Below are positions 6,630 to 40,096 of a stretch of DNA of 64,000 bases, one piece after another. A program made the position numbers and the translations under genes. Every line of letters begins with the position of its first letter. The stretch's first letter is position 1. The DNA is from Streptomyces liliifuscus (lineage in GTDB: Bacteria; Actinomycetota; Actinomycetes; Streptomycetales; Streptomycetaceae). The notes beneath the pieces were generated by a model. It saw only the letters and a list, made by a program, of their open reading frames with translations, had not been told where the DNA came from and made no database searches. The stretch covers positions 620,001-684,000 of the forward strand of contig NZ_CP066831.1 of NCBI RefSeq assembly GCF_016598615.1. The letters run 5' to 3'.

Positions 6630-8651
6630 ATGCGATATATCGAGAACCTCCCTCACACCACCAGGCAAGAGGACCACGTCAGGATCCCGATGCCGGACGG
6701 CGTCCACCTCTCGGCGCGCATCTGGCGCCCGGTGTCCTCGGACGACTCCCCCGTCCCGGCGATCCTGGAGTACATCCCGTACCGCAAGGGCGATCTGAGT
6801 TCGGTCCGCGACTCGATCCACCACCCCTACATCGCCGGGCACGGCTACGCGTGTGTCCGTGTCGACCTGCGCGGTACCGGTGACTCCGAGGGCGTACTCA
6901 CCGACGAGTACCTGGAAGTCGAGCAGAGCGACGCCGAGGCGGTGCTCGACTGGCTCGCCGCGCGGCCCTGGTGCGACGGCACAACTGGAATGATGGGCAT
7001 TTCCTGGGGCGCGTTCGCGGCGCTGCAGGTGGCCGCTCGGCGCCCCGCGAGTCTGCGGGCCATCGTCATCTCCTCGTTCACCGACGACCGTTACGCCGAC
7101 GACATGCACTACATGGGCGGCGCGATGCTGTCCGACAACCTCGCCGAAGCGGGCACCATGTTCGCCTACGCCACGTGCCCACCGGACCCGTCCGCCGTGG
7201 GCGAGCGCTGGCGCGAGATGTGGCACGAGCGTCTGGACGCCGCACAGCCGTGGGTCCTGAACTGGCTGCGCCATCAGCGCCGCGACAGTTACTGGCGGCA
7301 CGCGTCGGTGTGCGAGGACTACACCGCCATACGCTGCCCCGTCCTCGCCTCCAGCGGCTGGGCCGACGGATACTCCAACGCGGTGACCCGTCTGCTCTCC
7401 CACCTGGACGTGCCGCGCAAGGGGCTGATCGGCCCCTGGTCCCACAAGTACCCGCACCTGGGCGAACCCGGACCAGCCATCGGCTACCTCCAGGAAGTGG
7501 TGCGCTGGTGGGACCACTGGCTGAAGGGTGCGGACAACGGGGCGGTGGACGGTCCGATGCTCCGGGCGTGGATGCAGGACAGCGTGCCACCCTCCACCTC
7601 GTACGAGGAACGCCCCGGCCGCTGGGTCAGCGAACCCACCTGGCCCTCGCGGCACGTTCGCAACACCGCGTACGCGCTGCGCTCCCGCCACCTCACAGCC
7701 GAGGGCGAAGCCCCGAACGACGGGCGGAGCCAGACGCTGCGGTCCCCGCTGTCCGTGGGGCAGTTCGCCGGAAAGTGGGCCTCCTACAACGCCCCGCCGG
7801 ACCTGCCCTATGACCAGCGTGAGGAGGACGGCGGCTCCCTGGTCTACGAGACCGAGCCGTTGACGGACCGGCTGGAGATACTCGGGGCGCCACGTGTCGA
7901 ACTGGAGGTGAGCGCCGACCAGCCCGTGGCCATGGTGGCCGCCCGGCTGTCGGACGTGGCCCCGGACGGCAGCGCCACCCGGATCACGTACGGCGTACTC
8001 AACCTCACCCGCCGGGACAGCACGGACGAACCCTCGCCCTTGGAGCCGGGTCAACTCCACCGGGCCACGCTGCACTTGAACGGTGTGGCGCAGGCATTTC
8101 CACCGGGCCACCGCATAAGGCTTTCCCTGTCCACGTCGTACTGGCCGTTGGCCTGGCCACCGCCACGGCCCACGCTCCTGACGGTCCACGAGCAGCCGTG
8201 TCGCCTCGTCCTACCGGTTCGCCCGGCCGACGAACCGGGCACCTCGGCCCCCTTCGAGGCGCCCGAGGGCGCCACCCCCATCACGACGACTCAGATGACG
8301 CCGCCCGAGCAGCGCTGGGAGGTCAGCCGCGACCTGATCGACTACGGCGCGGCGTTGAACATCGTCAAGGATCGCGGCACGATCCACTTCGACGCGATGG
8401 ACCTGGACGTCGGGTGCCGCGCCCACGAGCGGTACACCTCAGTCGCCGACGACTTCACCTCACCGGCCGGTGAAGTGACGTGGACCATGAGTTTCCGGCG
8501 CAAGGACTGGGACGTACGGGTCCGCACGAGCACGACGTTGACCTGCGACGCCGAGGAATTCCACGTCAACGCCACGCTGGACGCCTACGAGGGCGGTCGG
8601 CGCGTCGCCTCGCGCACCTGGAACGAGTCGGTCTCCAGGGACATGCTGTAG
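6630..8651 (+). CDS. CocE/NonD family serine hydrolase
   Basis: A 673-residue alpha/beta hydrolase of the Xaa-Pro dipeptidyl-peptidase (S15)/cocaine esterase group. The nucleophile elbow is GISWG with Ser125. The acid is probably the Asp in SSGWADGYSN and the base the His in GPWSHKYPH. A helical cap lies between them. The jelly-roll C-terminal domain (X-Pro_dipeptidyl C) follows, and then an extra beta-rich region of about 110 residues, seen in longer members. Relatives cleave peptides, beta-lactams or amino-acid esters. There is no signal peptide, so it is cytoplasmic. It starts 7 bp after the ATP-grasp gene, which suggests ligation and hydrolysis of the same product class. Confidence 0.88.
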   Translation: MRYIENLPHTTRQEDHVRIPMPDGVHLSARIWRPVSSDDSPVPAILEYIPYRKGDLSSVRDSIHHPYIAGHGYACVRVDLRGTGDSEGVLTDEYLEVEQSDAEAVLDWLAARPWCDGTTGMMGISWGAFAALQVAARRPASLRAIVISSFTDDRYADDMHYMGGAMLSDNLAEAGTMFAYATCPPDPSAVGERWREMWHERLDAAQPWVLNWLRHQRRDSYWRHASVCEDYTAIRCPVLASSGWADGYSNAVTRLLSHLDVPRKGLIGPWSHKYPHLGEPGPAIGYLQEVVRWWDHWLKGADNGAVDGPMLRAWMQDSVPPSTSYEERPGRWVSEPTWPSRHVRNTAYALRSRHLTAEGEAPNDGRSQTLRSPLSVGQFAGKWASYNAPPDLPYDQREEDGGSLVYETEPLTDRLEILGAPRVELEVSADQPVAMVAARLSDVAPDGSATRITYGVLNLTRRDSTDEPSPLEPGQLHRATLHLNGVAQAFPPGHRIRLSLSTSYWPLAWPPPRPTLLTVHEQPCRLVLPVRPADEPGTSAPFEAPEGATPITTTQMTPPEQRWEVSRDLIDYGAALNIVKDRGTIHFDAMDLDVGCRAHERYTSVADDFTSPAGEVTWTMSFRRKDWDVRVRTSTTLTCDAEEFHVNATLDAYEGGRRVASRTWNESVSRDML

Positions 8652-28913: not shown

Positions 28914-29404
28914 TCAACGGACCGTCCCCGCGAACACCAGCCACAGGGCCGCCGCGACAACCATCCCGCCCAACCAGCCGACGGCGCGGCTGGTGTAGAC
29001 GTTCTTCAGGGCGGTGATCCTCGCGATGGCGTGCGCGGTCGCCCATGCTTGGGCCGCCAGCCGCTCGCTGTCGGCACCGTCGTGGTCCGCCGCGTCCAGG
29101 GAGAACCTATTCGGCTCCGAGTGCCGCCCCGTACGCGGCCGGATACCTGCACCAGCAGGTATCCGGACACAATGAAGGTGAGCGTATAGGCGAGGGACGC
29201 CAGCCAGAACAGTGCGGCCGGTAGGTCGGTCGGCGCCGGAGCGCCGACCGACGCGATCTGCGCGGACACCACTGCCGCGAGCCCCACGTGCACCGTGACC
29301 AGGGTCCCCGCCTTGGTATCCGCCTGCTGCGTGACCTGCTGGAACAACGCCATCGCGGCAACCGCCGCCGCCAACTCCCGCGCAGCCGGGTCATGTTCGG
29401 CCAT
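28914..29404 (-). pseudogene. Pycsar-type membrane effector-like gene, one frameshift
   Basis: ATG 29404 follows the stop of the cyclase-like gene by 3 nt. The first part has LAAAVAAMALFQQVTQQADT followed by KAGTLVTVHVGLAAVVSAQ and a second helix (LFWLASLAYTLTFIVSGYLL). Near 29130 the frame changes, and the natural continuation is in another frame: NRFSLDAADHDGADSERLAA, then ITALKNVYTSRAVGWLGGMV and VAAALWLVFAG, with TGA at 28914. Two N-terminal and one C-terminal helix around a soluble loop, with ADTKAG near the start, resemble the PycTM-like effector family of Pycsar systems. Active effectors would perforate the inner membrane. One frameshift makes this copy doubtful, or it is a sequencing error. 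Confidence 0.55.
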
Positions 29405-29407
29405 TAC

Positions 29408-30318
29408 TCAGTGCCCGCCCTGGTGGAAGTGGTGGCCGAGGTCGTGGTAGTAGGCAGGGTCGTGGTATCCCGGATCGTCGTGATGGGGGTCGGGGTGGTA
29501 CGAGTCGGGATTGTAGGGATCCTGGTGGTACGGGTCGCCGTGATATGGAGCAGGAGGATGCACCTCGGCATGCTGCGCGTCGGCGTACTGCACGTCCTGA
29601 TGGTGCGGACCCGTGTCAAGGGAATCGGGATGGTGCAGGTCCCCAGGATGCGGGGCGGTGTGATGCACGTCAGCGTGATGCGGGCCCGGGAGCCAGGGAG
29701 TTCCGCAGTGCCCGTTCCCGTGATGGCCGCTCCCCAGGTGGGCACTCCCGTGGTGGGAGCTTGGCTGCTGGCGTCCCGTGTGGTGGCCGTCTGTGCTATC
29801 GCCGTCGCGCGCGTCCATCTCGTCCGGGCCGCCGAAGTCCCCGTCCCCGCCCCCGTACGAGACGCCGGTGTCAGGGCCTGTCAGTGCCCACTCCCGCAGC
29901 GTCTGACCGTGCGAAACCACCGCTGCCGCCACGTGAGCGACACCCAGCGCCGGTACGACGAACTCGCGCATCGCCGTATGGGCCGGCGAATGTCCCCAGA
30001 TCACCGGCTCCGGCCGGGAATCCCGGACGGGAGCCGAGGGCGGCACATGCAGCCAGGCACCGCAGGCGAAGTTTTTCTTCACGACGGCCACGTCGATCCG
30101 GTGGAACCCGGCGGCCAGACCGCGCCCGTCGGGCAGGATCACGTCCCGGTACATCTCGTCCGGCACGGCCAGCGCCAAGTCGCTGCCCTCTTCGATTTCG
30201 AGGGCGTCGCGCAGTCCGTCCGAGTCGACGAGCCGGTTGACCAGCACCACGGAATCGCCCAGGTAACCGCGGTCGGCCCGGGAGACCGACCCCAGCGCGA
30301 GAGCGTCCCGAATCCGGC
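29408..30318 (-). pseudogene. C-terminal half of a nucleotide-cyclase-like protein with His-rich tail
   Basis: The frame is open from just after an in-frame TGA near 30318 to 29408. From about 30290 it reads GYLGDSVVLVNRLVDSDGLR, then EGSDLALAVPDEMYRDVI and VVKKNFACGAWLHVP. This is the C-terminal part of the class III cyclase-like fold of a widespread Streptomyces family, in which GFVG, RLLDA and VKE segments follow the catalytic half. The N-terminal half with the two metal-binding aspartates is missing. A tail of about 140 residues is extraordinarily rich in His, Pro, Asp and Tyr (YHPDPHHDDPGYHDP). If translated, GTG 30250 is the likeliest start. The effector-like gene follows after 3 nt. 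Confidence 0.55.
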
Positions 30319-30378
30319 CTCAGCCCCTCCCACACACCTCCTGCGGACCCCTGCCTCAACGCCAGACCATCACATCCG

Positions 30379-30560
30379 CGCAGGTCAGAGCGATTCGAAC
30401 TGACGCCGACGGTTGCGGGGTTGAACTCACGAGCAGCGGATTCAGTCCGTTCAGGCAAAGTTGACGATCCGACACCCAAAAAAGAACGTTTGCGCAGGTC
30501 AAAAGCCTAAGCAGGTGGGGCGGGTGGGACTCGAACCCACGGCCGACGGACTATGAGTCC
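30379..30560. repeat. Long imperfect repeat, left copy (ends in tRNA-Met 3' half)
   Basis: About 180 bp that recur with interruptions at 38968-39147. Shared blocks are CGCAGGTCAGA, TTGAACTCACG, GCAGCGGATTCA, AAAGTT, ACGTTT, a second CGCAGGTCA, and finally the identical 46 bp at 30515-30560. CGCAGGTCA occurs at 30379-30387 and 30493-30501, as expected of integrase arm sites. The right part overlaps the tRNA-derived core. Confidence 0.65.
30515..30560 (-). repeat. 46-bp tRNA-Met(CAU) 3'-half copy, left island boundary
   Basis: On the minus strand this is the anticodon stem-loop (anticodon CAT), variable loop, T arm (GTGGGTTCGAGTCCCAC) and acceptor 3' strand of a tRNA-Met gene. It is identical to 39102-39147. 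The similarity stops abruptly at the anticodon stem, where tyrosine integrases commonly cut, so it is a probable attachment-site duplication. The 5' half of the tRNA is absent. Confidence 0.8.
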
Positions 30561-30791
30561 TTTGAGGATCTCGGCGGCCCTTGCCGATCGGTGTCCATTC
30601 ATGACGCTTCTGCTGCTCAGACATGGTGGGCCATGTCTCCGCCCGTCAGTCTTCGTCGGTCTGTTCCTATCCTTGCGTCCCACATGTGTCCCGACACCGC
30701 CCCGAACGGCCAGGGACGCCGGGCTGTCAGGCGATTACGCGAGCTCGGAGGTGGGGCTCGAACCGGCCCGCAGCGGATTTACCTTCCAACG

Positions 30792-30961: not shown

Positions 30962-33900
30962 TTGGACAAGAAGCTGCGTCTCGCCGATGCCGCATATCAG
31001 GAAATGGCGACTGAGGCCCTGAACCTCTGGTTACCCTCCGCGAGGTTCCTCTTCGAGCCGATGCCCCGGGGCCGCTCGGGTGCCGAGCTGGTGAGCGTGG
31101 ACATTAGCGGCAACACCGGAGACTTCCGGCCAGGCACCTACGTCCTACGTGTTGGCCCAGCAGAGGAGGATCTCGCCCAGGCGAACGAACTGGCAGCCCA
31201 TCAACTGATCCGCGAGGCCGACCCGGAGTTCGCCGAGCGGCACATCCCGCGTCTGCTCCGCATCGACCAACGCCGCCACGGCGACGCCCGGCTGGTTGTG
31301 TCGCTGCACCAACTCGCCGGCGACAGCCTCAGCTGGTACAGCCCGCCCCGAAGCGGGTCGACGGGGCTGTTGCGTTGCGCGCAAGCCATCTCCCGCGACA
31401 TCCTGAATGCCTGGGCGGATCCGAGCGACTTGACGCAGATGCGGCCGCACGACGTGCTGTCGAAGGTGACAGGAACGGCCAAGCTCGACGAGTGCCTGGC
31501 CGTTGTCTCATCCCTCTTCGGAGGTGACGTCCACCAAGAGGACGGGCACGCGTTTCTCAACCCCCTCTCCGTCCTGGGCGAGGCTGAAAACAGCGAGCTG
31601 CCGATTATGGAAGGCATCTGCCACGGGGACCTCAACACCAGCAACGTGCTCGTGCCTCGGAACGAAGTGGCGGTCGCTGACGGCTCCTTCTGGATCGTCG
31701 ATCTGGACCAGGCGCGCCGGTCCGTCGTCGGGTTCGACCTGGCTTACCTTGAGGTCAGCGTCCTGGTGAACATGCTGCCGACCATCCGCCGCCCCGTGCT
31801 CGCCCGGTGCCTGGAGGCAGCCGAGGACGCTTCGGTCAAGTCCGTGCCGGACGATTGCCAGTGGCTCGTGGAGTTCCTGCAGCAGTCACGCGCCGGCATT
31901 CTGGAATGGATTTACAGACAGACCGGGCGGGTGGACCGCCTTCACCAGCAGTTAACGCTGGTGCGCATGACAGCCGCACTGCTGTGGGCCCGGCGCTTCC
32001 CCCGTGATGACGAACGTACCCGGCTCTGCCTCGCCTATGCCGGCTGGTACGCCCTGCGGTACCGCAGGACCTTCGCCAGCGCCGCGCCGCAGCAGCCGAG
32101 CGTTCCGGCGGTTTGCACCCCGCCCAGGGAGGTGGAGCGGGTCCGCGAGGATCTCTGGGAGTCCCTCTGGGGCACCGTCTCCGGGTTCTCCCCGCACGCG
32201 GCCCGGTACATCCTCGTCGCGGAGCAACTCCCCCGCGCATCGTCCATCTCGGCGCTCGGCCGCATCCCCTGGTCGCTAATCGTCGACCTCGACCCGGCCT
32301 CGGACGGCGACGGACTTCACCACTGGGCCAGCCCGGTCCTCAACACTCAGCGCGCGGTGCATCTCTTCACCGAGGAGCGCCCTGTGATCGACTATGCGCG
32401 TGGCACGGCCTGGCTGCTGGCCGCCGGTTCCGTGCTGCGCCGGGAGCCCGCCCTGGAAGGCCGCGAGTGGGTGCTCCGTCGCCTGGACACTGTGCGTCGG
32501 CTGACATCCTCGTTCCACCAGTTCGCCGGCGACACGCCGGTGTGCGTCCTGGTGCTCGAGGGCGGCACCGAGTCCGCGCCAGAAAGGGGCCGGAACAGAC
32601 TGCTGCGGGTCATCGAGACCATGGACGAAATGCTCCAGGGGCAGGCGACCTTCCTGCATGTGGGACTGGCCGACCTACAGCCCTACGTGCCCGTGGTCCA
32701 GGTGCCGCTACCCGTACACGACCTGCTGGACCGCCTCGCCGCGACGCTGGGCAGCAGCGCCGAGTACCTCGACTACACGGTCCCCGCCCTCGACAACGGC
32801 ACGGTGGCGATCTCGCCGGAAACCATGCAGAAGCTGCGCGAGCATCTGGTGATCCTGCATGACGGGATCGATGCGTCAACTCTGCCCGGCGACAAGACCA
32901 ACAACGACGCCTTCTGGCGCGGCGGCCTCATCGGCTGGGACGATCTGGACGCTGGCCGGGACGTGGTGCGCGCCGTCAACGACGGCATCGTGGCCGCCCT
33001 CCGTGACAGTCTGAAGCAGCATCGCACCCGTACCGTCGTGGTTGAACACCGGCCGGGTGCAGGCGGTACGACTGCAGCCCTGCGCGCCGCCTGGGACCTG
33101 CATCACGAGTCTCCGGTGGCGGTACTCCCGCACGGCGTGCCGATCGGGCCGTCTCGCGTCCCGCTCGTCGCCGACCGGTTGCATCTGCTGTACACCATCA
33201 CGCAACTGCCAGTGCTGCTCGTCGCGGAAGCGGGCGACCTGAGCGAGTCCTACCGGGAGACGCTGTACCGCGAGTCAGCCAGACGCAACACCCCGCTGAC
33301 GATTCTGTATGTCAGACGGGGGGTCACTCAGTCCAGCCGGAGCGCCCTTCAGGTGTCAGAGCCGCTCGAACCGGCGGAGACCGCCGAGTTTTTGGCCCGC
33401 TATTCCGCGCTGACGGACGACCAGCATCGGATCGACGAGTTGCGGATGCTCGGTACCAAACACTACGAGCCCTACCGCACGCCATTCTTCTACGGCCTCG
33501 TCACCTTCGAGCGGGAGTTCACCAAGCTCTCTACCTACGTACGCACCCATCTCGACCATGTACGTGGCCGAGCGCGCGAGGTCATGCAGTACCTCGCCCT
33601 GGCTACCATCTACTCCAATACCGGGCTGCAGCGGGAGCTAGTGCAGAAGCTGATGCACGTCTCCACGCCGTCGGCAGAACTCGACCTCTCCGATGTGCTG
33701 GGCCCGGAAGCATCCCGTCTGGTGGCGGTGCGCAACGGCCGGGTACGCCTCCAGCATCAGCTCTTGGCCGAGCAGGTACTGGCCGAACTCCTGAACGACG
33801 ACCGGTGGAAGCAGCATCTCAAAGAGCTGTCGATCGACTTCATCCAGGCTCTGGCGATCACCACCGACGTATCCGCGGACCCAGTGCGGGTGCTGCTCCG

Positions 33901-36900
33901 CCAAATGTTCGTGGACCGGCAGGGCGGCACGGCAGACGGGATCGAGGACCGGCGGAAATTCGCCCCGCTCATCGAGCAGCTGGACCTCAACTCCGCCCAC
34001 CAAGTACTCAAGTCCCTCACCGAGCACGTGCCTGACGAGCCGCACTTCTGGAACCACCTGGGCCGGCACCAGATGTACCGCCTCAACCGGGAGCTCGACA
34101 AAGCGGAGGAGTACGTCACGCGCGCCGTGGACCTGGCGGAGTGGGATTTCCTGCATCATCACACCCTCGGTCTCGCGCGCCGCAGCCGGATGCGCCAAGC
34201 GCTGCGCGACGCCAAGCGGCGCGGAGTGCAGTCGGTGATGGCCGCCGCCGACCGCTGGTTCGCGCAGACCGTCGAGTGCTTCGCCACCACCCGGAAGCTC
34301 AACCCGGAAAACATCTACGGATACGTCACCCATGTGCAGGCCATCGTCGATGTCGCCAAGGCAATTAAGGACGCGGCACGGGTCTCATCCATCGCGGAAC
34401 TCAGCTCCGACGCGAGCGAGTGGGTCACGGAGAACGTGGCCGAGGCCAACTTCCTGCTGAATGAGGCCGCCCAGCTCTACGGAACTCTAGACCAGCACGA
34501 CGACTACTTGGTGCGGTGCCAGGCCGACATCAAGCGGCTGTACGGCGACCTCGACTCGGTGGTCGAGCTGTGGGAGCTCGCCGTCGCCGGTAACCGCAGC
34601 ACACCCATGATGCAGCGGGCACTCGCCCAGGCGTACTACGTGCGCGGCGGCCGCACCTGGCGGGAGTTGGACGACTCCGAGCTGACCCGCATCGTGGAGC
34701 TGGCACGGCAGAACCTCTCCAGAACCGGCTGCAAGGAGGAGGACTACCGGCTCTGGTTCGAGGCGTACAAACTCCTGCCGGAGTTTGACATCGACGAGGC
34801 GCTCTCCCAGCTCCAGCTCTGGGCGGATCGCTTCCCCTCGTGGCGCGCCCACTACTACCGGTACTGCCTCTTCTTCCACCTCTGGTTCACTGGCCGCAGC
34901 AACGACGTGGAGGCTTTCCGCGTGGAACAGCAGCAGGCCGAGAAGTATGTGGTGGGCCGCTCCAACCGCTCCTATCTGTGGCTGTCCACGGGCCCCGATT
35001 GGTATCCGCTGATCGCCGACAGCGACCTGGGCGAGTGGAACCGCCGGGACATGTTCTGGACGAACACCACACATCTGCAGCGGGTGAATGGCGTCATCGA
35101 CCTCATCCGCGGGCCCCAGGCGGGCACCATCCAACTCGAAGGCGCGGTGACCGCCTTCTTCGTCCCGTCCCGGGGCAAGTTCCTCCCGGACAGTGACGAG
35201 AACACCCCGGTCAACTTCTTCCTCGGCCTCAGCCCCGAGGGACCCCGCGCGTGGGACGTCAGACGGGGGCATCTCGACCACGCCCTGCGGGCACGGCAGA
35301 CGGTGTCAGCGGGCCCGGCGCGCACGCTCACCGCCCGGCACCCCGTGCACCTGGCACCGGCCCAGGTTGCGGCGCAGGCTGCTATGCTCACGCGGCAGCG
35401 CAGGCTCGATTTCTGCATCTCCCTGCTGGAGGCATGGCAGACGGTCGGCGACACGCCTCGCCTGTCTAGGCTCACCGAGCGGGTCAGTGCTCGTTTCCGG
35501 TACAACGGCGCGGACGTAGCCGAACTCCTTGCCGAATCGGACCGCGTCCACTTCGACGCCGACGAGAACGACCCACTCGTCCAACTGCTCGGCTGCCAGG
35601 GTCAACCGGTCCGGTCGACAATGGCCGACCATGGGCAGTCCTCCGACGGCCAGCCGGAACTGGGCCGCATCACGTTCGTCAATGAGACCCACGGGCACGG
35701 CATCGTTGAACTGGTGAACCACGGGTGGGCGCGCTTCACGACCGACGATGTGCGGACGCAGCTTGCGAACGGCCCGGTCCGCGGCCAGATCGTGCGGGCG
35801 GTCATGGTGGAGATGGACCGCAATGGTGGGCGCAACGCACGGGGCCTGGAGCTGTTCCCCCTTACGGCCACGCTGGTGGGCACCGAGGTGGTGGACGTGG
35901 AGCAGCTCCTCGATCGCGTTGAAACCGACCTGCGGTACGAGATCGAGGAACGGCTTGCGCAAGGAGTGCGCATGGTGCCGATCCGAGAACTCGAGGAGTG
36001 GCTGGAGGAAAGGTTCAAGGGCTGCCAACCGCTCGCGAGCCGCCTCGGTCTGCCGTCCCTGCGGCAGCTGTGGACCGGGCTGGACTGGCTGAAACAGAGC
36101 GGCAACCCCGGCAACAGGATGCTGAGCCTGGCCAGCGGGACAGTGTTCGGGCGCGTCTCAGAGGCCCGTGGAAAAGCTGCGGGCCGGGAGCGTCACGCTG
36201 ATGAGCGCGACGACTTCGGCACGGCGCTGGATTCCGTGGTCACCACACTCCAAAAGGATAATGAGGGCAAGGCACCCACGTTCTACAAGGTGAAGAACGG
36301 GCTTGTGAAGCTCTTGAGGAGCAGGTACGACGCCGTGGTCGGCAGGTCCCTGCAAAGGCGGATCGAACAGCAACCGGGGTGGGAACTGCGGGAACTAAAT
36401 TCCGGTGTGCAGTTAGTCCACCGAGCCGGTACTCCCGCGCCGCCCGCCGACGCGCCGGAGCCGTTCGCCACCGTACTCGCCCACACCGTGGACGAACTCG
36501 CCCGGCAGGGAAGGCCCCCAAACCTCCAGATGATCGGGTCTAGCCTGCGGTCCCGACTCGGCGAGGCGTATGCGAGCGTCGTCGGCTCTTCATTGAAGAA
36601 GCGGATCGAACGCGAACCCGAGTGGCGGCTAGAGGAGATCAGGCCCGGGGTGCACCTGGCCCATCGAGCCGAAGCCCCCGCCCCGGCGGGGCGCTCTGCG
36701 GCAGAGGTGGACGTCGCGGCGGACCTGAACGCCGTGATCGGAGAGCTACTGACGCGTGACGGCGAGGCTCGTCTCACCGTTCTCGGGAACGCGTTGCGGA
36801 AGCGGTGGGGCCCTGAGACCTATCAGGCGTTGACCGTCGACCGCACGCTCCGTCAGGTGGCCGAGGCGCACGGCTGGGAGGCCCACTGCCCAAGGCCGGA

Positions 36901-36952
36901 CACCTGGGTGCTGCGCCGGCGCAGTGCCCAGCCCCCCAGCGTGGAAGGATGA
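30962..36952 (+). CDS. Giant multidomain STAND NTPase, SAMD9-like, candidate defence protein
   Basis: About 1,996 residues from TTG 30962 (GGAGG eleven bases upstream; ATG 30923 is an in-frame alternative). Order of regions: (1) 1-330, phosphotransferase-like, with catalytic loop HGDLNTSN at 221-228 and metal Asp247 in IVDLDQA; (2) about 370-660, an alpha/beta region with GRIPWSLIVDLDPASDGDGL, then WRGGLIGW; (3) a P-loop with GAGGTT at 699-704, lysine replaced by glycine, and Walker B-like VLLVAEAGD at 751-759; (4) from about 1026, TPR-like helices; (5) an OB-fold at about 1566-1632 (GRITFVNETHGHGIVELVNH); (6) three LOTUS/OST-HTH-like repeats starting near 1752, 1835 and 1922. The GGTT P-loop, TPR and OB order recalls animal SAMD9. 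No membrane helix. The Nudix-like gene follows after 3 nt. Confidence 0.75.
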   Translation: MDKKLRLADAAYQEMATEALNLWLPSARFLFEPMPRGRSGAELVSVDISGNTGDFRPGTYVLRVGPAEEDLAQANELAAHQLIREADPEFAERHIPRLLRIDQRRHGDARLVVSLHQLAGDSLSWYSPPRSGSTGLLRCAQAISRDILNAWADPSDLTQMRPHDVLSKVTGTAKLDECLAVVSSLFGGDVHQEDGHAFLNPLSVLGEAENSELPIMEGICHGDLNTSNVLVPRNEVAVADGSFWIVDLDQARRSVVGFDLAYLEVSVLVNMLPTIRRPVLARCLEAAEDASVKSVPDDCQWLVEFLQQSRAGILEWIYRQTGRVDRLHQQLTLVRMTAALLWARRFPRDDERTRLCLAYAGWYALRYRRTFASAAPQQPSVPAVCTPPREVERVREDLWESLWGTVSGFSPHAARYILVAEQLPRASSISALGRIPWSLIVDLDPASDGDGLHHWASPVLNTQRAVHLFTEERPVIDYARGTAWLLAAGSVLRREPALEGREWVLRRLDTVRRLTSSFHQFAGDTPVCVLVLEGGTESAPERGRNRLLRVIETMDEMLQGQATFLHVGLADLQPYVPVVQVPLPVHDLLDRLAATLGSSAEYLDYTVPALDNGTVAISPETMQKLREHLVILHDGIDASTLPGDKTNNDAFWRGGLIGWDDLDAGRDVVRAVNDGIVAALRDSLKQHRTRTVVVEHRPGAGGTTAALRAAWDLHHESPVAVLPHGVPIGPSRVPLVADRLHLLYTITQLPVLLVAEAGDLSESYRETLYRESARRNTPLTILYVRRGVTQSSRSALQVSEPLEPAETAEFLARYSALTDDQHRIDELRMLGTKHYEPYRTPFFYGLVTFEREFTKLSTYVRTHLDHVRGRAREVMQYLALATIYSNTGLQRELVQKLMHVSTPSAELDLSDVLGPEASRLVAVRNGRVRLQHQLLAEQVLAELLNDDRWKQHLKELSIDFIQALAITTDVSADPVRVLLRQMFVDRQGGTADGIEDRRKFAPLIEQLDLNSAHQVLKSLTEHVPDEPHFWNHLGRHQMYRLNRELDKAEEYVTRAVDLAEWDFLHHHTLGLARRSRMRQALRDAKRRGVQSVMAAADRWFAQTVECFATTRKLNPENIYGYVTHVQAIVDVAKAIKDAARVSSIAELSSDASEWVTENVAEANFLLNEAAQLYGTLDQHDDYLVRCQADIKRLYGDLDSVVELWELAVAGNRSTPMMQRALAQAYYVRGGRTWRELDDSELTRIVELARQNLSRTGCKEEDYRLWFEAYKLLPEFDIDEALSQLQLWADRFPSWRAHYYRYCLFFHLWFTGRSNDVEAFRVEQQQAEKYVVGRSNRSYLWLSTGPDWYPLIADSDLGEWNRRDMFWTNTTHLQRVNGVIDLIRGPQAGTIQLEGAVTAFFVPSRGKFLPDSDENTPVNFFLGLSPEGPRAWDVRRGHLDHALRARQTVSAGPARTLTARHPVHLAPAQVAAQAAMLTRQRRLDFCISLLEAWQTVGDTPRLSRLTERVSARFRYNGADVAELLAESDRVHFDADENDPLVQLLGCQGQPVRSTMADHGQSSDGQPELGRITFVNETHGHGIVELVNHGWARFTTDDVRTQLANGPVRGQIVRAVMVEMDRNGGRNARGLELFPLTATLVGTEVVDVEQLLDRVETDLRYEIEERLAQGVRMVPIRELEEWLEERFKGCQPLASRLGLPSLRQLWTGLDWLKQSGNPGNRMLSLASGTVFGRVSEARGKAAGRERHADERDDFGTALDSVVTTLQKDNEGKAPTFYKVKNGLVKLLRSRYDAVVGRSLQRRIEQQPGWELRELNSGVQLVHRAGTPAPPADAPEPFATVLAHTVDELARQGRPPNLQMIGSSLRSRLGEAYASVVGSSLKKRIEREPEWRLEEIRPGVHLAHRAEAPAPAGRSAAEVDVAADLNAVIGELLTRDGEARLTVLGNALRKRWGPETYQALTVDRTLRQVAEAHGWEAHCPRPDTWVLRRRSAQPPSVEG

Positions 36953-36955
36953 GCT

Positions 36956-37951
36956 GTGGCGGACGATGAGGCGGCTGCGGTCGCCGCGCTCCTGGAGGCC
37001 TTGGCCGAACATACCGGGCCTCCGGTCTCGGTGTCCGAGCTTTGCCGACGGACAGGCCTGAGCAGACCAACTGTCGAGACCGCAGCGCCGATGGTGCTGG
37101 TGCTGCTGAGCGCGTTCGGCGTCCTGCGGTCCGAACACGAACCGACGAACGGTCAGGCTGGCGTGGTTCCGGTCAGCCCGCAAGCGCGCTACTTCCTGCA
37201 CAGTCTTGCCTCCTATGTGCGGACGGGCCGCTCGATCCTGGCCAACTGGGAAAGGCCGGGAACGGCCGAGCCGCCATACACCAGCCGCCAGGCACTGTCC
37301 GGACCGCAGTTTCTCTACCTGATGGAGGAGCGGCGGCTGGCCCTTGATTCCGACGCCGCACCGCTACGGCGCACCGACGTCGTCCAGGTGGTGGTCAAGT
37401 GCCGCCTCCGGGGCCGCGGCGGCCGGGCTCAGTACCTGCTGGTGTACGACGATCGAGCCCGGCAGTACCAACTACCGGGCGGCCACATCCGTGCCTCGGA
37501 CGCTGACGTCCGCGCCGCAGCCGCCCGGGAATTGGAGGAGGAGCTGCCGGGCTATGACCACACTCCGGGCAGGGACGAGCTGAAGGAACTCGGTACGGTC
37601 TCCGCTGTCCAGCTGTCCCGGACGTTCGGCGCAGTGACGGAGTACCGGGTCGTCTTCTTCCAACTCGAGTCAAAGGCCCGGTCAATCCCGGTGGGCCCCG
37701 GCGGACGCTGGGTGCCCGAGGACGCCCTGCTCGACCAGGTGACCCTGCTCGACGGCACTACCCTGAACGTCACCGCCCTGAACCGGCTCGACCAGTCACT
37801 CCCCGGGGGCCTCCGCAGCCTGCCGTGGAGTCTGCCGGACGCCCAGCGCAGATCGCTGCGCGCGGTGGTCCGAGACAGACCATGGGAGACCGTCGGCCTG
37901 GTCATCGGAATCCTCGGACTCTTGCTGTCCGTCATCCCACTTCTGGGCTAG
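36956..37951 (+). CDS. Winged-helix/Nudix-like membrane-anchored protein
   Basis: A 331-residue protein starting at GTG 36956, with AAGGA eight bases upstream inside the end of the STAND gene. The N-terminus is a helix-turn-helix (VSVSELCRRTGLSRPTVETA). A Nudix-like fold follows: LVYDDRARQYQLPGGHIRAS, then RELEEEL at 191-197. The Nudix box is imperfect: REUxEE is present, but spacing to the glycine and the first Glu position differ, so hydrolysis of nucleoside diphosphates is possible but not assured. The C-terminus is one transmembrane helix (VGLVIGILGLLLSVIPLLG). The tight coupling suggests it works with the STAND protein, perhaps as effector or modulator. Confidence 0.7.
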   Translation: MADDEAAAVAALLEALAEHTGPPVSVSELCRRTGLSRPTVETAAPMVLVLLSAFGVLRSEHEPTNGQAGVVPVSPQARYFLHSLASYVRTGRSILANWERPGTAEPPYTSRQALSGPQFLYLMEERRLALDSDAAPLRRTDVVQVVVKCRLRGRGGRAQYLLVYDDRARQYQLPGGHIRASDADVRAAAARELEEELPGYDHTPGRDELKELGTVSAVQLSRTFGAVTEYRVVFFQLESKARSIPVGPGGRWVPEDALLDQVTLLDGTTLNVTALNRLDQSLPGGLRSLPWSLPDAQRRSLRAVVRDRPWETVGLVIGILGLLLSVIPLLG

Positions 37952-38558: not shown

Positions 38559-38967
38559 CTGGTCCATCTACAGGAGCCCGTTGGAGGCGCCGAAGACGAG
38601 GACGTAGAGGGCCCCGCCACGAGAACGATCGCCCCATAGCGAACTGTCGCCTTGCGGTACCTGACGGCCACGACTCGGAGCCTCGAGATGCGACGCATCA
38701 AGAAGCTCTTGGGCCGTTTTCAGCACGGGCCGTTAGCCGTCGCTCCATCAGACCTCTACAGCGGCTCGGTGATCAGGGGAGCCCAAGCCTAACCTCGCGC
38801 CACCCCACCACTCCGATGCCCCTACCCAGCCTTGGTGGGCCTCGACGACACGGCATGGGAACAGCCGCTTCCGTTTCCCTGTGTGCTGCGAGCGTCCCGA
38901 ATGCGGCGCCCAACCACTCACAGAGGCCATCCACGGCGCCCTCCGCCGCCTACAAGCCTGGCATCCC
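38559..38967. other. Degenerate stretch inside the island, no intact gene
   Basis: The minus strand has a short piece (RRISRLRVVAVRYRKATVRY, GAIVLVAG) that continues plausibly in another frame as ALYVLVFGASNGLL, like a frameshifted one-helix protein. The plus strand around 38880-38960 has CCERPECGAQPLTEAIHGAL, a possible C-terminal fragment. Neither has a ribosome site or recognised family. Confidence 0.35.
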
Positions 38968-39147
38968 CGCAGGTCAGAAGAGTTCGAACTACCGTCGTCG
39001 GCAACGCTGTTGAACTCACGCGCAGCGGATTCACTCCGATGGGCCAAAGTTCTGAATCCACACTCCTGACGAGACGTTTCCGCAGGTCAGGACCCTGCAC
39101 AGTGGGGCGGGTGGGACTCGAACCCACGGCCGACGGACTATGAGTCC
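38968..39147. repeat. Long imperfect repeat, right copy (ends in tRNA-Met 3' half)
   Basis: The counterpart of 30379-30560, in the same orientation. CGCAGGTCA occurs at 38968-38976 and 39081-39089, with the blocks TTGAACTCACG and GCAGCGGATTCA between. It ends in the identical 46-bp tRNA-derived core. The two copies delimit the 8.6-kb segment carrying the STAND and Nudix-like genes. Confidence 0.65.
39102..39147 (-). repeat. 46-bp tRNA-Met(CAU) 3'-half copy, right island boundary
   Basis: Identical to 30515-30560. The anticodon CAT is the complement of 39140-39142. Beyond it, 39149-39155 (CCGCCCC; GGGGCGG on the minus strand) could pair with the acceptor 3' strand, so this copy looks like a tRNA-Met gene that kept its acceptor and anticodon but lost the whole D arm. 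A functional tRNA is unlikely. Confidence 0.75.
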
Positions 39148-39340
39148 GCCGCCCCCCTTCCAGGACGAACGCACTCCCTGACTTCCAGAGATTCCTCCGC
39201 CAGGCGGAAGCCGCATCGCGCCCGGAAAGGACTCGTCCCGACGATGTCGCCACCCCTTCAAGACGGGAGCCGCAACAATGTCCTGACCGAGTTGTCCGCC
39301 CCGCTCGGCCTCTGCCGCGTCGGCTGTGGTGGAGGCCGGG

Positions 39341-40096
39341 ATGATTCAGAGTGGAGGGATGTCTGAATCGTCATTGCCGGGTGGCTTCGTCAATCACGTT
39401 GTGCGGGTCGGTGCCACGGTGCGCCGCCCCGCGTCGGCCAGTACAGAGTTCGTCGCCGAACTGCTGAGGTTCCTTGAGGTCCATGGCTGGGGCGGTGCAC
39501 CGCGGTACCTGGGCCTCGACGAGGACGGGCGTGAGGTCCTCACCTATCTTGACGGGCACGTGGCCTGGGAGCGGGAGCAGCCGTCAGCCGTGCACTCCGA
39601 GGAGGGTCTGTTGCTGGTCACGCGGCTCGTGCGGGAGTTCCACGATTTGACAGCCGGCACCGAACTGGCCGGATCACAGGAGGTCGTCTGTCACAACGAT
39701 CTCGCGCCCAAGAACACGGTCTACCGATCGGTCGACGGCGCCTTGCGTCCGGTGGCCTTCATCGACTGGGACTTGGCGGCTCCGGGCGCGCGCATTCACG
39801 ATGTCGCCCATGTGTGCTGGCAGTACATCGGTCTCGGGCCCAGGGTGAGAGACATCGACGACAGCGCGCGGCGCTTGCTGTTGGTCGCCGACGCCTATGA
39901 GCTGGCCGATCAGGACGACCTCATCCCTGCGATCTTGTGGTGGCAGGACAGGTGCTGGCGCGGCATCGAGGCTGCTGCGCGGGCCGGAGACCAAGCGATG
40001 ATCGGTCTTCGAGCCGCAGGCGCAGTCACTGAGGTCCAGGCTGCCTGGCAGTGGGTCCTGAACCACCGGGATGTCCTGGCTCGCGCACTGCGATGA
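39341..40096 (+). CDS. Aminoglycoside phosphotransferase-fold protein
   Basis: A 251-residue member of the APH/choline-kinase superfamily. The catalytic loop is VVCHNDLAPKNTVY (Asp base, Asn metal ligand) and the metal-binding aspartate is in FIDWDLAAPG. Such proteins transfer phosphate from ATP to small molecules or antibiotics; the substrate here is unknown. The N-terminal lobe is short (VVRVGATVRRPAS) and lacks a clear ATP-binding lysine. ATG 39341 has GGAGG five bases upstream; ATG 39359 is preceded too closely by GGAGGG. It lies just outside the right tRNA-derived boundary. Not resistance by evidence, only by fold. Confidence 0.8.
   Translation: MIQSGGMSESSLPGGFVNHVVRVGATVRRPASASTEFVAELLRFLEVHGWGGAPRYLGLDEDGREVLTYLDGHVAWEREQPSAVHSEEGLLLVTRLVREFHDLTAGTELAGSQEVVCHNDLAPKNTVYRSVDGALRPVAFIDWDLAAPGARIHDVAHVCWQYIGLGPRVRDIDDSARRLLLVADAYELADQDDLIPAILWWQDRCWRGIEAAARAGDQAMIGLRAAGAVTEVQAAWQWVLNHRDVLARALR

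Follow-up and report, generated by a model that had tools for sequence, protein, structure and literature searches.

The question raised by this locus is what a giant protein of 1,996 residues does in a Streptomyces chromosome, and whether it may serve as a switch in defence against viruses. The locus lies in a 64,000-nucleotide stretch of the Streptomyces liliifuscus genome (hereafter the window; positions 620,001 to 684,000 of contig NZ_CP066831.1, C1:620001-684000), and includes a gene for the large protein, directly followed by a companion gene for a protein with helix-turn-helix (HTH) and Nudix domains. By sequence homology the large protein belongs to the SAMD9 family, and it is most likely a STAND-type infection sensor whose kinase-type N-terminal head and partner protein act jointly. 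The fuller reading, that a SAMD9-family STAND switch and its partner gene, set between tRNA-derived repeats, sense infection and bring about growth arrest, is in our judgment evenly balanced. The parts of the gene pair are as follows, model confidence being the predicted local distance difference test (pLDDT) read in ten-residue blocks.

30962-36952, forward strand: SAMD9-family STAND protein, 1,996 residues, TTG start (homology and start evidence)
31019-32071, forward strand: predicted TCAD9/APH-type kinase-like domain, residues about 20-370 (Pfam TCAD9 and alignment)
32174-32881, forward strand: predicted SIR2-like domain, part of the SAMD9 core, residues about 405-640 (profile A8)
32909-33601, forward strand: P-loop NTPase with HRPGAGGTT and the Walker-B-like LPVLLVAEAGDL (Pfam nSTAND_NTPase5, profile A2)
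33974-35026, forward strand: TPR/helical region, residues about 1005-1355 (profile match)
35027-35281, forward strand: conserved stretch where SAMD9 has its OB-fold, residues about 1356-1440 (conservation among relatives)
35357-35596, forward strand: modelled winged-helix unit a, residues about 1466-1545 (AlphaFold2 blocks at pLDDT 59-82)
36209-36925, forward strand: three modelled winged-helix repeats, residues about 1750-1822, 1835-1904 and 1918-1988 (AlphaFold2 blocks mostly at pLDDT 74-89)
36956-37951, forward strand: companion gene, 331 residues, with HTH (10-40) and NUDIX (150-259) domains and a hydrophobic C-terminal helix (313-331) (Pfam, hydropathy)

The large protein matches a single place in the 11.35 Mb genome. 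It is encoded by one open frame on the forward strand, as an earlier annotation of this DNA made without database searches (the sequence-only reading) had claimed. An ATG at 30623 lies upstream in the same open frame; the TTG at 30962 is a reasonable start, because the alignment of relatives begins at about this point and a GGAGG-like site is located just 5′ of it.

That annotation had further proposed a bacterial SAMD9-like STAND protein with a P-loop of the form PGAGGTT and a TPR-like region, and the searches agree with it on each count. With E ≤ 10 as the limit, a single-sequence search of solved structures returned seven distinct sequences; six are SAMD9, the best (E 1.7e-4) covering residues 674-1079. 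Profile A2, constructed from six bacterial cores, matched human SAMD9 (E 1.4e-21) from profile position 2 to 469, pairing the RGG..SW stretch and H.PG.GGTT, while profile A8 (the preceding region, seven rows) matched the same protein at E 3.8e-16 over positions 16-310, corresponding to chain positions 256-599 of 37ht in a single alignment extending into the P-loop. It follows from these two matches that the SIR2-like domain, NTPase and TPR region are homologous in order, and residues 660-1020, for which a P-loop NTPase had been proposed, match that class by sequence. The P-loop reads HRPGAGGTT at residues 696-704, with Gly in place of Lys and a His upstream; none of the 11 core-bearing proteins examined, the window's among them, keeps the Lys (Gly in ten, Ala, i.e., GAT, in that of L049), and the upstream His is present in every one. 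Profile A2 also matches designed TPR proteins, with a best E of 3.5e-10 over 39 positions. Of the features of the SAMD9 family, a GGT/S P-loop with its His, a preceding SIR2-like domain and a following TPR region are thus found, and the motifs are kept in core comparisons with relatives at 56% identity. No AlbA_2 domain was found in the large protein (P0001) by Pfam at E ≤ 10; this is compatible with the family, because Mekhedov et al. 2017 (PMC5445408) count kinase-headed members lacking AlbA_2.

The Pfam models are less telling. Across the whole protein TCAD9 covers the HGDLNTSN loop with 38.6 bits, just under its 40-bit cut-off, and nSTAND_NTPase5 covers the P-loop with E 1.1e-7 (32.2 bits, cut-off 34). 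The nSTAND5 model exceeds its cut-off in 36 of 150 genomes of the genus and gives matches below it in six of 14 control genomes; TCAD9 exceeds its own in four of 61 genomes, three of which carry this gene, the fourth (G024) possessing a 578-codon frame. Taken alone, both models are unspecific.

When the head was searched separately, TCAD9 rose to 42.7 bits, above the cut-off, and at E ≤ 0.01 TCAD9 was recovered in all ten heads compared and APH in seven. The catalytic loop HGDLNTSN occupies residues 221-228, and alignment places the Mg-type Asp at Asp247. Nine of the ten aligned heads have HGDL and that of Janthinobacterium has HNDL; the loop Asn and the later Asp are invariant. Of the features of the APH/TCAD9 class, the HGDxxxxN loop and the Mg-binding Asp are therefore present and the beta-3 lysine is absent, its position being occupied by Arg63. 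Profile matches of the heads in the PDB were weak (nine sequences, E 0.17-0.71, all in kinase catalytic-loop regions, and including choline kinase, Rio2 and a Ser/Thr kinase), and an AlphaFold2 model of residues 1-660 (A5, four rows) reached a mean pLDDT of 38.6. On sequence grounds we assign the head to the kinase type and the domain behind it to the SIR2-like type. The intact phosphotransferase-type loop reported earlier is accordingly real, with the reservation of Arg63, and the kinase-like N-terminal domain holds as anatomy. Within the family such a head is nothing out of the ordinary, bacterial SAMD9 proteins of this build having been in print since 2017 (PMC5445408). A reading as a stand-alone metabolic APH enzyme is not supported. 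An 833-residue protein on a Ruegeria plasmid (NZ_CP065360.1; L051:7965-10466) has the same TCAD9/APH head, but its C-terminal part is another one, to which TPR matches weakly, and it has no SAMD9 P-loop; the head therefore occurs separately from the SAMD9 core. In the window itself a 256-residue APH-family phosphotransferase (39326-40096, Pfam E 3.3e-10) lies just beyond the right-hand repeat described below; the head profile aligned with it over 43 columns around the loop at a weak probability of 22%.

A tree of ten bacterial cores (midpoint root; L076 left out) unites the window protein with three others in a clade with 100/100 support, here called the subgroup; the positions of the Janthinobacterium and AlbA_2-headed rows are unsure because of their long branches. 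In all four members the partner gene lies directly downstream, encoding about 330 residues, and the three other copies are 54-60% identical to that of the window over its length; in the window three bases separate the stop codon of the large gene from the GTG of the partner. Pfam recognizes NUDIX (E 1e-8) and HTH_IclR (E 5.8e-6) in the window copy, for which the HTH is shown, and the Nudix domain and C-terminal hydrophobic helix are common to the four. In the genus sample of 246 genomes a partner profile gave matches at E ≤ 1e-20 in at least four, and those recorded are the four genomes of the subgroup. All four partners keep the RELEEEL stretch of the Nudix box. The Nudix consensus also has a Glu earlier in the box, which the partner lacks, and its catalysis is therefore uncertain. 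No relatives of the partner were found in the PDB at E ≤ 0.01, and PADLOC gave only matches of E 0.0087-0.025.

The family as a whole is sparsely distributed. Because only one to eight candidates per genome were scored in the genus, phylum and class samples, the counts are lower bounds: profile A2 matched at least eight of 246 genus genomes (own included), a whole-protein search at least three of 101, and profile A9 at least two of 384 in the class sample; in the phylum sample it was at least one of 396, the match recorded being the own genome. Named genomes with such loci are those of Streptomyces sp. ms191, Mycolicibacterium chubuense and Janthinobacterium sp. PC23-8; plasmids yielded the head-sharing Ruegeria protein and two others in which the AlbA_2 head recurs. 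The Mycolicibacterium gene (L049:9857-14635) has a G+C content at third codon positions (GC3) of 0.59 and is located between two arabinosyltransferase genes; that of Janthinobacterium has a GC3 of 0.37. In the subgroup copy of genome G560 (L061:4848-12036) the 3′ part of the large gene is split between two frames that overlap, the result of a frameshift or a sequencing error.

The other four kinase-headed members of the genus (L052, L062, L063 and L076) are shorter than those of the subgroup. Their tails resemble one winged-helix repeat by eye, and no winged-helix Pfam match was obtained in the three that were scanned. Each large gene is adjoined by a gene for a small protein, in varying orientation. 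The small neighbours of L052, L063 and L076 are homologous (42-59% identity over 192-202 residues), that of L062 shows no detectable similarity to them, and one N-terminal hydrophobic helix was computed for those of L052, L062 and L063. A short hydrophobic frame of L050 (63 codons, 7589-7777) was set aside, as it overlaps a tRNA-Thr.

A different head is found in a further member of the genus. L064:351-8107 (P0007) carries SLFN_AlbA_2 (Pfam E 2.7e-10) upon the same core of SIR2-like domain, NTPase and TPR, and, apart from the missing SAM domain, is the closest in the set to the animal SAMD9 layout. It is followed by a defence-type gene (AIPR, E 2.1e-33; AbiU by PADLOC, E 2.9e-30), which makes this locus a candidate for a bacterial SAMD9 in a defence-type setting. 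The third gene there encodes a kinase that matches PD-T4-6 models, possibly unspecifically, these being kinase models.

Between the large protein and its relatives the core is 63-69% identical, the head 50-54% and the C-terminal arms, which diverge fastest, 32-48%. AlphaFold2 modelling of residues 1353-1996 (A6, four rows; mean pLDDT 58.1) is confident mainly in the winged-helix parts, where the three C-terminal repeats noted in the sequence-only reading are recovered together with a fourth at about 1466-1545, giving four modelled winged helices. This last unit matches winged helices with VIA-align Z values up to 9.0, and the middle C-terminal unit matches the LOTUS domain of Oskar with Z 8.1 (2.7 Å over 68 residues), tied with winged helices that are not LOTUS, all of these values lying in or near the range reached by common arrangements. 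Foldseek returned no match at E ≤ 0.001 for the C-terminal model, and Pfam none to OST-HTH in this part. The OB-fold that had been placed at 1566-1632 is not confirmed: the piece 1547-1640 has no Pfam match, pLDDT there is 33-51, and identity over 1555-1635 is 32-35%. Residues 1356-1440, which share 67-68% identity with two close relatives and are recognizable in other relatives including the AlbA_2 type, are more likely the OB place of the family, judging by conservation; no OB-fold appeared among the PDB profile matches.

Both genes stand between two repeats.

30515-30560, reverse strand: left att-like repeat, 46-base 3′ half of tRNA-Met (identical to the right repeat)
39102-39147, reverse strand: right att-like repeat, 46-base 3′ half of tRNA-Met (tRNA-Met called here by ARAGORN)

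A tRNA-Met copy with one mismatch to the 46-base sequence is located at C1:7354210. The repeats terminate a 262-base direct pair of 75% identity (window 30301-30560 and 38890-39147), which may reflect two related tandem insertions, and from this arrangement the two genes look like a cassette between att-like sites. The tRNA-Met call at 39102-39177 is unsupported as a working tRNA, only about 51 of its bases matching the copy at 7.35 Mb. Between 26000 and 44000 the Rfam matches at E ≤ 0.1 were all below the gathering threshold: weak ones to tmRNA models on the tRNA-like repeats and one to a miRNA model. To the left of the left repeat a 371-residue frame (29288-30403) is without Pfam or PADLOC match.

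How might such a protein work? SAMD9 acts through an N-terminal tRNase, and published models treat it as a STAND-like switch that contacts within the molecule keep inactive (PMC13245274, PMC12331169); SAMD9/SAMD9L restrict poxviruses in animals, their mutations causing human disease. By analogy, switching would fall to the core of the window protein, the effector role to its head and sensing to the rapidly evolving C-terminal arms. The TPR, OB-place and winged-helix arms would sense an infection product, probably nucleic acid or nucleoprotein; binding of a nucleoside triphosphate at the lysine-less P-loop would then alter the oligomeric state and draw together the APH/TCAD9-type heads, which occupy the place of the AlbA_2 tRNase. 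The HTH-Nudix protein with its hydrophobic tail could form the second half of the effector arm, placing at the membrane a module that binds or hydrolyses nucleotides and by which the product of the head would be read, made or removed, and the infected cell would stop growing. That the large protein may be a virus-defence switch is suggested indirectly by its antiviral animal homologue, the setting of L064, the sparse distribution, the repeats and the rapid divergence of the C-terminus.

Several observations weigh against this reading. No relatives were found in phage records, and of the pattern matches in viral contigs (18 and 55) none was confirmed as a relative. PADLOC 2.0.0 gave no model at E ≤ 1 for the large protein and no match for ten frames near the gene pair, and no defence-type Pfam family was found in the 30 of the 42 other window genes that were scanned; a recognized defence island around the window copy is thus unsupported. 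Seven tyrosine integrases are encoded in the genome and none in or near the window, so that a self-moving element with such an integrase is likewise unsupported. To these may be added the unspecific nSTAND5 model, the aspS-metG position of three relatives considered below, and the Mycolicibacterium and Janthinobacterium loci, at which no membrane partner was recognized. Replacement of the beta-3 Lys by Arg often lowers or abolishes kinase activity, and Arg63 is the strongest point against a kinase activity of the head.

This last point bears directly on the best-surviving alternative, in which the head is a pseudokinase scaffold, a module binding nucleotide or partner that no longer phosphorylates in this subgroup and that recruits and activates the Nudix protein with its hydrophobic tail as the real effector. 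Arg is found at the beta-3 position in all four members with a Nudix partner, and Lys in the seven other heads (six alignment rows and the L076 sequence); Arg and the Nudix gene co-occur, though these four members share one ancestry, and the conservation of RELEEEL in the four partners also speaks for this alternative. However, the HGDLNTxN loop and the Mg-type Asp are invariant in the same four proteins, suggesting that phosphoryl transfer or metal-nucleotide binding is still under selection, and the Glu missing from the Nudix box leaves the catalysis of the partner in doubt as well. We hold this explanation to be possible, on balance rather unlikely.

A second alternative is that the protein takes part in normal signal transduction of Streptomyces (stress, development or control of translation) and not in defence. 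Signal transduction was the sole prediction made for bacterial members by Mekhedov et al. 2017 (PMC5445408). Such a role would suit the surroundings, since 22 of the 30 scanned genes have Pfam matches to metabolic, transport or regulatory families and eight have none, and also the position of the three related cassettes, which are found at one site between the housekeeping genes aspS and metG (by Pfam for L046 and by matching protein ends for L047 and L061, L047 having extra intervening genes). The window copy has other neighbours. A system recorded in eight of 246 genus genomes, in varied chromosomal surroundings, is less easily reconciled with a housekeeping role, as are the direct repeats of the tRNA 3′ half and the AlbA_2-headed cousin next to an AIPR/AbiU-like gene; we therefore consider this explanation doubtful. 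That the large gene is dead cargo on a decayed island is very improbable, for despite the lack of a tyrosine integrase in or near the window, the split gene of G560 and about 1.1 kb after 37951 holding merely frames of about 100-166 residues, none of them taken as a gene by a composition-based caller, its 1,996 codons are open, its motifs and core are conserved, and the frame of the partner is open too.

The infection-sensor reading also needs to be set beside known systems. Like animal SAMD9/SAMD9L, the window protein has, in order, a SIR2-like domain, a GGT/S P-loop NTPase with its upstream His and a TPR region, followed by the region at the OB place; it differs in lacking SAM and the AlbA_2/tRNase head, in having a kinase-type head instead, and in its extra C-terminal winged helices and separate Nudix partner gene. 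With the kinase-headed bacterial proteins described in 2017, noted particularly in actinomycetes, in which an N-terminal kinase replaces AlbA_2, it shares both characters; that paper labels the head a Ser/Thr protein kinase, whereas the present one is of the TCAD9/APH type with a beta-3 Arg, and in its main text the words Nudix, winged, operon, neighborhood and Streptomyces do not occur (PMC5445408). Avs5 (AVAST type 5) likewise combines Sir2, a STAND NTPase and a helical C-terminus, and its authors describe PaAvs5 as structurally similar to human SAMD9 (PMC12931631); its Sir2 is N-terminal and its NTPase nSTAND3, whereas the window protein has an internal SIR2-like domain, a kinase-type head and an nSTAND5-like NTPase. 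TCAD9 has been tied to vWA-MoxR-VMAP ternary conflict systems (PMC10910872), and a few APH-type kinases have been reported as effectors in these systems (Kaur et al. 2020, PMC7159879). All ten heads match TCAD9, but none of the scanned window genes matches vWA, MoxR or VMAP in Pfam.

The kind of protein to which this one belongs, a kinase-headed bacterial SAMD9, has thus been known since 2017. New are the TCAD9/aminoglycoside-phosphotransferase (APH) type of the head, its catalytic loop intact, with the beta-3 Arg of the subgroup, the Nudix partner and the small neighbours of four relatives, as well as the AlbA_2-headed member of the genus beside an AIPR/AbiU-like gene, the tRNA-Met repeats and the four modelled winged helices. 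Among the titles and abstract openings listed in searches of the open-licence literature, which give a weak indication, the Nudix partner, the beta-3 change and a phage test of a bacterial SAMD9 are unreported.

From the co-occurrence of genes we infer that a membrane partner is required by the kinase-type head but not by the AlbA_2 head, with the limits that two kinase-headed proteins are without a recognized partner and that there is a single AlbA_2 example. Carried further, the SAMD9 proteins would be immune switches with interchangeable heads, either an AlbA_2 tRNase acting alone or a kinase-type head requiring a membrane partner, here a Nudix protein with a hydrophobic tail that would read or destroy the phosphorylated product, which might be a modified nucleotide or tRNA. 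We regard this generalization as speculative and improbable.

A genetically tractable genus that carries AlbA_2 and kinase-type heads upon one core of SIR2-like domain, NTPase and TPR would allow the switch with its lysine-less P-loop and the sensor to be studied apart from the effector, and the Nudix partner offers a concrete handle on the action of the kinase-type head. If the view of interchangeable heads is true, this pair of genes would represent a previously undescribed two-part phospho-signalling immune system.

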